Assembly (NCBI GenBank): GCA_027623995.1
Contig: JAQBUF010000017.1
Span: 1 to 56,027, forward strand
Origin: Nitrospirota bacterium
GTDB lineage: Bacteria > Nitrospirota > Nitrospiria > Nitrospirales > UBA8639
Direction of reading: 5' to 3'
DNA length: 56,027 nucleotides
Shown piece by piece: positions 1 through 24,310 of the stretch (position 1 is its first letter; each line of letters starts with the position of its first letter). A model generated the notes under the pieces. The model was not told the origin of the DNA, searched no databases, and saw only the letters and a program-made list of their open reading frames with translations. A program made the translations under genes and the position numbers.

Positions 1-280
1 CCACGTGACGTCACCGCCGTGACTGGCCGCGTCTATCCCCCGGGCAGACTCGCAGGTCGAAGGGAGGTGCCGTCGCGCGATCAAGGGTTCGGACATCGTG
101 AGGAGCCTCCCCGACAGGCTTGGCCGAATCGAGTGCACGTTCGTGACGGACTGCTCGTTCGTCTCAGGTTGCTCTCCACCCTTCCTCACGGAAACGCCGT
201 GACCACTGTCGACTTCAGGCTGGTCACGTTCGCCTGAGAGGGACTTGCACCCTCCTGATCAAACGCCTTCACAGGCGCAC
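1..280 (-). mobile_element. group II intron, 5' part (domain I), cut by window edge
   Basis: Read on the minus strand, the stretch begins at 280 with GTGCGCC, the usual GUGYG start of bacterial group II introns. A short hairpin follows (GCGCCT paired with AGGCG), then GAGGGTGCAAGTCCCTC at 254-238, the stem with GUGCAAGUCCC loop that is typical of early domain I. The rest, to base 1, is structured, visibly richer in G+C than the neighbouring genes, and has no convincing protein reading frame. The insertion lies inside a REPIN-like repeat: the intact copy at 17696-17806 ends GCAGCTAC, while here the sequence reads GCAGCTA and then the intron. The 5' exon is therefore a hairpin followed by a few bases, as for class C introns, which home to hairpins and terminators. 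The reverse transcriptase gene and the 3' end would lie outside the window. The intron class is inferred; the intron identity rests on the 5' motifs. Confidence 0.72.
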
Positions 281-390
281 TAGCTGCACGATCTCATCGT
301 GCCTTCTGCCCAGACACCAAATGCGACTGACGCCTGGAAGAGGCAGCATCCCTTCGACGGGGGCTCAGGACAGGAAGATGCTGCAGCTAC
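281..390. repeat. REPIN-like element, copy 1 (interrupted by the group II intron)
   Basis: This 110-base copy matches base for base the reverse complement of 17696-17806; only the terminal base is lost, replaced by the first intron base. It has two inverted REP-like ends. One end carries the hairpin GCACGAT-CTC-ATCGTGC (285-301). The other, read inward from 390, is GTAGCT followed by a stem GCAGCATC/GATGCTGC with a long loop. A GTAG tetranucleotide followed by a palindrome is the usual build of REP sequences mobilised by RAYT transposases; no RAYT gene is present in the window. An open frame starting inside this repeat (321) runs into the methyltransferase downstream but is not its real start. 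Bases 391-533, between repeat and gene, hold only the ribosome binding site. Confidence 0.8.
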
Positions 391-17695: not shown

Positions 17696-17806
17696 GTAGC
17701 TGCAGCATCTTCCTGTCCTGAGCCCCCGTCGAAGGGATGCTGCCTCTTCCAGGCGTCAGTCGCATTTGGTGTCTGGGCAGAAGGCACGATGAGATCGTGC
17801 AGCTAC
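17696..17806. repeat. REPIN-like element, copy 2 (intact)
   Basis: An intact 111-base element with inverted ends GTAGCTGC and GCAGCTAC. The left half has the stem GCAGCATC/GATGCTGC with a long loop; the right half has GCACGAT-GAG-ATCGTGC. Its reverse complement equals bases 281-390, and the flanking bases differ, so the ends are sharp. Such pairs of inverted REP hairpins (REPINs) move with RAYT transposases in trans. Confidence 0.82.
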
Positions 17807-23880: not shown

Positions 23881-24310
23881 CGCTTCCTACCCCGATCACC
23901 CTGGCTTCTCACACCACCAAAATTTTCAGTGATAAAAAAGTGAGGCAAAGGTCCACGAACTCAATGCGAATAGGATACCTCAGGTGCGTGAGTAAACCAA
24001 TACAATACGCATCAAACCTGGAGGGCCTACATTCCAATAGTGATTTAACTTTTCATACGCTCCATTTTTTTACGCGCACTGGTCCTGAACTTTGGACAGA
24101 ATATGCACTTTGTAGCTGCGGCATCTCATGCCGCCTCTTCTTTTATTTTCAGTCCCATGAAAAGGCTTGAAGAGAGCACGATGAGATCGTGCAGCTACAA
24201 AAGAAATGAACCGTAGGCCCCTTCCATTTTGGCAAAGAGGCAATCTTTATGCGTCTTATCACTTGCTATTCAATGATGTGGAGACAGCATCTCGGCGACT
24301 GAATTGATGA
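23881..24310. other. gene-free stretch with a REPIN-like element
   Basis: About 430 bases between the kynA and RmlD-like genes. No frame here has a ribosome site or family resemblance. The only structure seen is the repeat at 24112-24198. Confidence 0.55.
24112..24198. repeat. REPIN-like element, copy 3 (variant)
   Basis: An 87-base element bounded by GTAGCTGC and GCAGCTAC. The left hairpin is GCGGCAT-CTC-ATGCCGC, the right GCACGAT-GAG-ATCGTGC. The right hairpin is the same as in the two 111-base copies; the left one and the spacer (about 30 bases) differ. This shows one REP head with at least two partner heads. Confidence 0.75.

Follow-up and report, generated by a model that had tools for sequence, protein, structure and literature searches.

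A multicopy group II intron in the genome of a Nitrospirales bacterium, judged from comparison of its copies and relatives, very probably spreads by copying itself into REPINs without an endonuclease, the site being chosen by a hairpin together with the EBS1 and EBS3 pairings. Related introns in many phyla probably form a widespread endonuclease-less lineage outside class C that is specialized on REPs, REPINs or similar palindromes, in which the hairpin replaces IBS2 and EBS1 is re-coded for each host. The window, which is the whole of contig C16 (56,027 nt) of a genome assembled into 110 contigs (3.13 Mb), begins at its base 1 inside the repeated intron, and the assembly contains no sequence further left. 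The break 280 nt into the insertion is presumably due to the presence of several copies of this insertion in the genome. The interior of the intron is absent from the assembly of the source genome.

On the minus strand, positions 390 to 281 of the window (GTAGCTGC...ATCGTGCAGCTA) show 110/110 identity with positions 17696 to 17805. The intact copy continues with C (17806), while the intron-bearing copy switches at position 280 to GTGCGCCTGTGAAGGCG (Table 1). The first-pass annotation had recognized a group II intron from the start GTGCGCC at 280 and the GGGTGCAAGTCCC stem and had placed it just after the hairpin of a REPIN. Both readings are borne out, the first also by domain V/VI and RT/maturase sequences on other contigs. 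Nineteen related introns share the GTGCG start and the GGGTGCAAGTCCC stem, which shows compensatory changes, and the intron part of the window has 87% identity with the 5' end of L066, a complete intron. With a group II covariance model, proposed there as a check on positions 1 to 280, this part gives no match (Rfam group II models).

Table 1. Features of the intron and of its target element in the window
Feature	Positions	Strand	Basis
Group II intron, 5' part (GTGCGCC...; domain I onward), cut by the contig end	1..280	-	Direct reading; comparison with L066
Intron 5' end GTGCG; junction 281 (A, final exon base)/280	276..280	-	Direct reading; mapped relatives all start GTGCG or GTACG
EBS1 loop of the window copy, TCCTCACGAT; mismatches own site	95..104	-	Homology
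REPIN-like element hosting the intron, which takes the place of the final C	281..390	-	Copy comparison, REPIN pattern
Terminal hairpin of the REPIN, GCACGAT-GAG-ATCGTGC, 5 nt upstream of the junction	286..302	-	Hairpin scan
AGCTA, separating the hairpin from the junction (position of IBS1)	281..285	-	Direct reading; same at 5/5 intron 5' ends
Intact copy of the intron-bearing REPIN (empty site)	17696..17806	+	Copy comparison, REPIN pattern
Second intact REPIN of the family	24112..24198		REPIN pattern

The target element is built like a REPIN, with, in this order, GTAGCTG, a hairpin, CCTCTTC, a spacer, GAAGAGG, a further hairpin and CAGCTAC. Dispersed elements of this kind, with two inverted REPs and GTAG ends, occur at least 57 times in the genome under a strict pattern, compared to none for the reversed-pattern control. 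Downstream of the hairpin, AGCTAC is followed by AAAAG or AGGAA, without a T tract on the intron-sense strand; the hairpin is therefore not an intrinsic terminator, a candidate that was rejected on this ground. In its two inverted REPs, GTAG ends and dispersal the element resembles the known REPIN/RAYT systems, but it may differ in the linkage to a RAYT gene: none of the four Y1_Tnp genes of the genome carries GTAGCTGC repeats in the fetched flanks of this fragmented assembly. These RAYT-like Y1 transposase genes (L062, L063, L064 and L065 on C39, C24, C55 and C46) include two that are almost identical. GGGGTCAGGTCTTGCA and similar sequences recur near some of them, and the genes may serve another repeat family. 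Some REPINs sit within longer imperfect palindromes, in which the left flank predicts the right one. One REP hairpin contains in its loop an extra stretch, TTCCTGTCCTGAGCCCCCGTCGAAGGGA, at positions 341 to 380 and 17706 to 17750 of the window and in several other genomic copies, which looks as if a repeat had been inserted into a repeat.

The 5' end of the intron is found at five contig ends (C16, C11, C48, C66 and C82), where it lies in 5/5 cases directly 3' of GCAGCTA, each time in a different REPIN. The intron parts of C11, C48, C66 and C82 match the window sequence at 100% over their 55 to 100 nt. The proposed check of whether other introns of the genome sit at REPs thus has a positive outcome, and both the 5/5 placement and the counts of 57 REPIN matches and 0 reversed ones argue against chance. 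The 3' end, ...CCCTACCCCTAT, is present at eight places (C6, C20, C22, C38, C58, C73, C81 and C104) and is followed in all eight by CA, as in most intact REPINs. The termini GTGCG...CCCTAT correspond to the GUGYG 5' end and the AY 3' end of mobile group II introns. Domain V/VI scores above the Rfam threshold (RF00029) at four of the eight 3'-end places, all on contigs other than that of the window, and C22 encodes the C-terminal portion of an RT/maturase, with GIIM and RVT_1 domains.

Contigs split by the intron can be rejoined because the REPIN flanks are palindromic, each predicting the other. Matching of reverse-complemented 5' flanks to the 3' exons paired three of the 5' ends: C11 with C6 (score of 47, against a null maximum of 25), C48 with C73 (49 against 28) and C82 with C22 or C38 (84 and 90 against 26). 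For the window copy, none of the eight 3' ends scored above the null with the C16 flank; C104, C22 and C38 begin with CAGGAAA, matching the prediction from that flank. The 3' exon had been expected to start with C and to continue as REPIN flank, and the CA at all eight 3' ends and the three paired flanks agree with this. Intron domains and a 3' junction as well as a REPIN-related 3' flank, any of which could have been missing had the initial reading been wrong, were found. A 5'-truncated copy consisting of the last 172 nt of the intron is located at C81:12516-12687 (L053, L166), after the apparent end of a coding sequence for an FtsH-like protein; it may stem from incomplete retro-insertion or from rearrangement.

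A DNA search of 147 relatives yielded two weak matches outside the source genome, one of which is a full intron. A scan of named genomes with the RT C-terminus revealed 76 loci in many phyla, including Planctomycetota and Pseudomonadota, and 40 5' ends and 59 3' ends were located with profiles of the two termini. Where both ends are present, the introns are mostly 1.84 to 2.02 kb long, and nearly all mapped relatives end with TAT. At 24 of 28 nonredundant 5' junctions, a hairpin with a stem of 6 bp or more ends 0 to 8 nt upstream; among positions of these flanks, the share is 5.7% (p ~2e-26). The other four junctions show no hairpin of this length and distance. The sequence of the hairpin varies by host, with ATTCCCGC..GCGGGAAT in several, ATTGCCGGG..CCCGGCAAT in Telmatospirillum, TCCCACGG..CCGTGGGA in an Isosphaeraceae genome and GCGGCGATGAATCGCCGC in two genomes of Planctomycetota. 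The copies fetched from Singulisphaera sp. GP187 (11/11) share a single insertion position within a REPIN-like element, between GCGTCGNGGA and CGGCA, the fuller copies of this element having CTCGTTCCCACGG and CCGTGGGAACGAG at their boundaries. The same insertion rule thus applies in unrelated hosts whose palindromes are also unrelated, so that, as far as the compared sequences go, it holds beyond the REPIN of this Nitrospirales genome. Telmatospirillum siberiense (G425) harbors two related introns, L075 and L119, with different EBS1 sequences and inserted after two different palindromes, GGGAATGA and CGGCAATCCA.

The pairings that appear to choose the site across the clade were recovered from covariation alone. 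Windows of 29 aligned intron 5' regions were scored for pairing with the end of the 5' exon against reshuffled pairings. One loop stands out as EBS1, with means of 4.6 of 5 and 5.1 of 6 pairs (z ~10 to 11, compared to z values below 4 elsewhere), and a single column, taken as EBS3, forms Watson-Crick pairs with the 3' exon's first base in 22/24 cases (z of 6.5), in tests which treat related sequences as independent and from which closely similar copies were left out. The EBS1 loop sits in a stem-loop with compensatory changes, as expected of EBS1. Other exon stretches gave no comparable signal for an EBS2-IBS2 pairing in this test of the aligned 5' regions, absence being the weaker kind of evidence. 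The window copy, which carries the only EBS1 in the assembly, pairs at 2/5 positions with its own site, compared to 4/5 positions for L066, its closest relative, at the L066 site.

According to Pfam, the encoded proteins combine an RT with a maturase domain and lack an endonuclease domain, full ORFs being available in the relatives. Their closest solved relatives are class C maturases, and the class C assignment made in the first-pass annotation has a reading to match: an ordinary class IIC intron could be using REP hairpins like intrinsic terminators, given that the rule for such introns is likewise a hairpin followed by a short IBS1 and IBS3 (PMC7923331). Class C-like traits are indeed present, namely, the hairpin before the site (24/28), the IBS3-EBS3 pairing and the lack of an EBS2-IBS2 signal. 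However, a protein tree with the GsI, Eubacterium rectale and Roseburia intestinalis proteins and plasmid proteins as references, in which the source genome's own protein is partial, places the intron clade (97/97) apart from the solved class C maturases (100/100). The C-terminal tail, RWPNAFFADHGLFSL in L068, is also unlike that of class C. Class C membership was rejected on these two grounds, likeness to class C structures not being counted as membership, and on this evidence the introns appear to lie outside class C. With the missing T tract and an EBS1 pairing of 5 to 6 nt instead of 3 to 4, an ordinary class IIC intron is an unlikely explanation.

Group IIC introns at terminators (B.h.I1) and IIC-attC introns (S.ma.I2) (PMC4424553, PMC7923331) share with the present introns the hairpin before the junction, a short IBS1, IBS3, the absence of a detectable EBS2-IBS2 pairing and the absence of an endonuclease domain; they differ in protein class, in the length of the EBS1 pairing and in their targets, the present introns using REPINs and further dispersed palindromes that lack a T tract. 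The class E introns H.ha.F1 and H.ha.F2 of Halorhodospira halochloris (PMC7923331) are likewise non-class C introns without an endonuclease that are located after attC-like hairpins, but they are two truncated copies in a cassette array, for which neither a repeat family nor covariation with the exons is shown. REPs are also targeted by the insertion sequences ISPpu9, ISPpu10, ISPsy8 and ISPa11 (PMC1525189) and by IS481 in SBW25 (PMC11708052), which resemble the introns in that every copy sits at one REP position but are DNA transposons.

The dispersal of the targets was determined by joining 45 nt of 5' exon and 30 nt of 3' exon of 19 introns into empty sites and searching each in its own genome. 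Copies covering most of the joined site were found for 11/19 introns (L070, L074, L119, L088, L095, L096, L066, L108, L110, L111 and L105), several of them 100% identical in Singulisphaera and Telmatospirillum. For L087, L100, L104, L109 and L116, the copies that reach or cross the junction are shorter or of lower similarity, the target copies of L103 end at the junction, and for L075 copies of the closely similar L103 hairpin are present; L072 shows no dispersed copies of its target in its own genome. In total, the target or a close hairpin variant is dispersed in the same genome for 18/19 introns. Control windows ~250 nt from the junction gave at most three matches in 9/18 genomes; with the real sites, seven of those nine genomes gave 13 to 39 matches and the remaining two gave 2 and 4, the control being imperfect as several control windows lie in other repeats and some introns in repeat-rich regions.

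The strong covariation of EBS1 and EBS3 with the exons and the abundance of repeats around several introns would also suit a selection of the site by IBS1 and IBS3 alone, the palindrome being incidental since the repeat happens to be one. Five bases plus one are expected thousands of times per genome by chance, yet every copy sits at a palindrome, and the hairpin precedes the junction by 1 to 5 nt in 24/28 introns whatever its sequence, which makes this explanation improbable. The insertion base common to all copies could, moreover, reflect a single insertion, after which REPIN and intron were copied as one unit. This is disfavored and highly improbable, as the five intron-bearing REPINs vary in length (85 to 111 nt), hairpin, spacer and flanks and intact empty sites exist, one of them identical at 110/110 positions. 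A chimeric contig that joined intron to REPIN, suggested by the start of the window at a contig end in a repeat, is scarcely credible and refuted for the junction by five independent contig ends that share it and by long contigs of relatives with the same arrangement, though such an end could still account for the mismatch in the EBS1 region.

The preferred explanation, copying of an endonuclease-less intron into REPINs, involves several steps. Insertion is seen always at the same base, between GCAGCTA and C, directly past the terminal hairpin of different REPINs, and EBS1 covaries with IBS1, the last 4 to 6 nt of the 5' exon, as EBS3 does with IBS3, the base that opens the 3' exon. The intron RNP would recognize the DNA hairpin, probably in single-stranded form at the replication fork, the way other endonuclease-less introns do. 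The exact base would then be fixed by the EBS1 and EBS3 pairings, followed by reverse splicing and reverse transcription. Dispersed REPINs would offer many such sites. Insertion splits the terminal CTAC, the complement of GTAG, and should immobilize the respective REPIN. Related introns appear to apply the same rule to the palindromes of their own hosts, with EBS1 altered to match. The 2/5 pairing of the window copy's EBS1, the RDADD motif of the RT fragment in C22, the missing intron interior, the four junctions without a hairpin and the repeat-rich surroundings of some introns count against this explanation.

A review assigns the targets of bacterial group II introns to three types, namely, homing sites, terminators and attC sites (PMC4424553; see also PMC7923331). 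A group II intron of Pseudomonas putida is associated with REPs in 2/9 copies (PMC1525189), and REPs are known targets of insertion sequences (PMC1525189, PMC11708052). Group II introns specialized on REPs or REPINs were not found described in the literature searched, which included few subscription papers and does not establish priority. From the sequences, the introns described here appear to be hairpin-associated group II introns that are placed on dispersed palindromes and belong to a lineage outside class C. If this is true, dispersed palindromes constitute a further class of targets with tens of sites per genome, which would account for several intron copies per genome and for the breaks of short-read assemblies at introns. 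Hairpin-associated insertion would extend beyond class C, and the natural series of EBS1/palindrome pairs would allow the study of target re-coding by a retroelement. REPINs would be tied to the spread of the intron, as insertion splits the REPIN end.

The first bases of C22 encode the RT active-site motif (L036/L052, positions 3 to 30) as RDADD and not RYADD, which is either a sequence error or an inactivating change. Strain mixture or misassembly is possible for both this motif and the EBS1 mismatch of the window copy because both are located at contig ends in a repeat; decay is a further possible cause.
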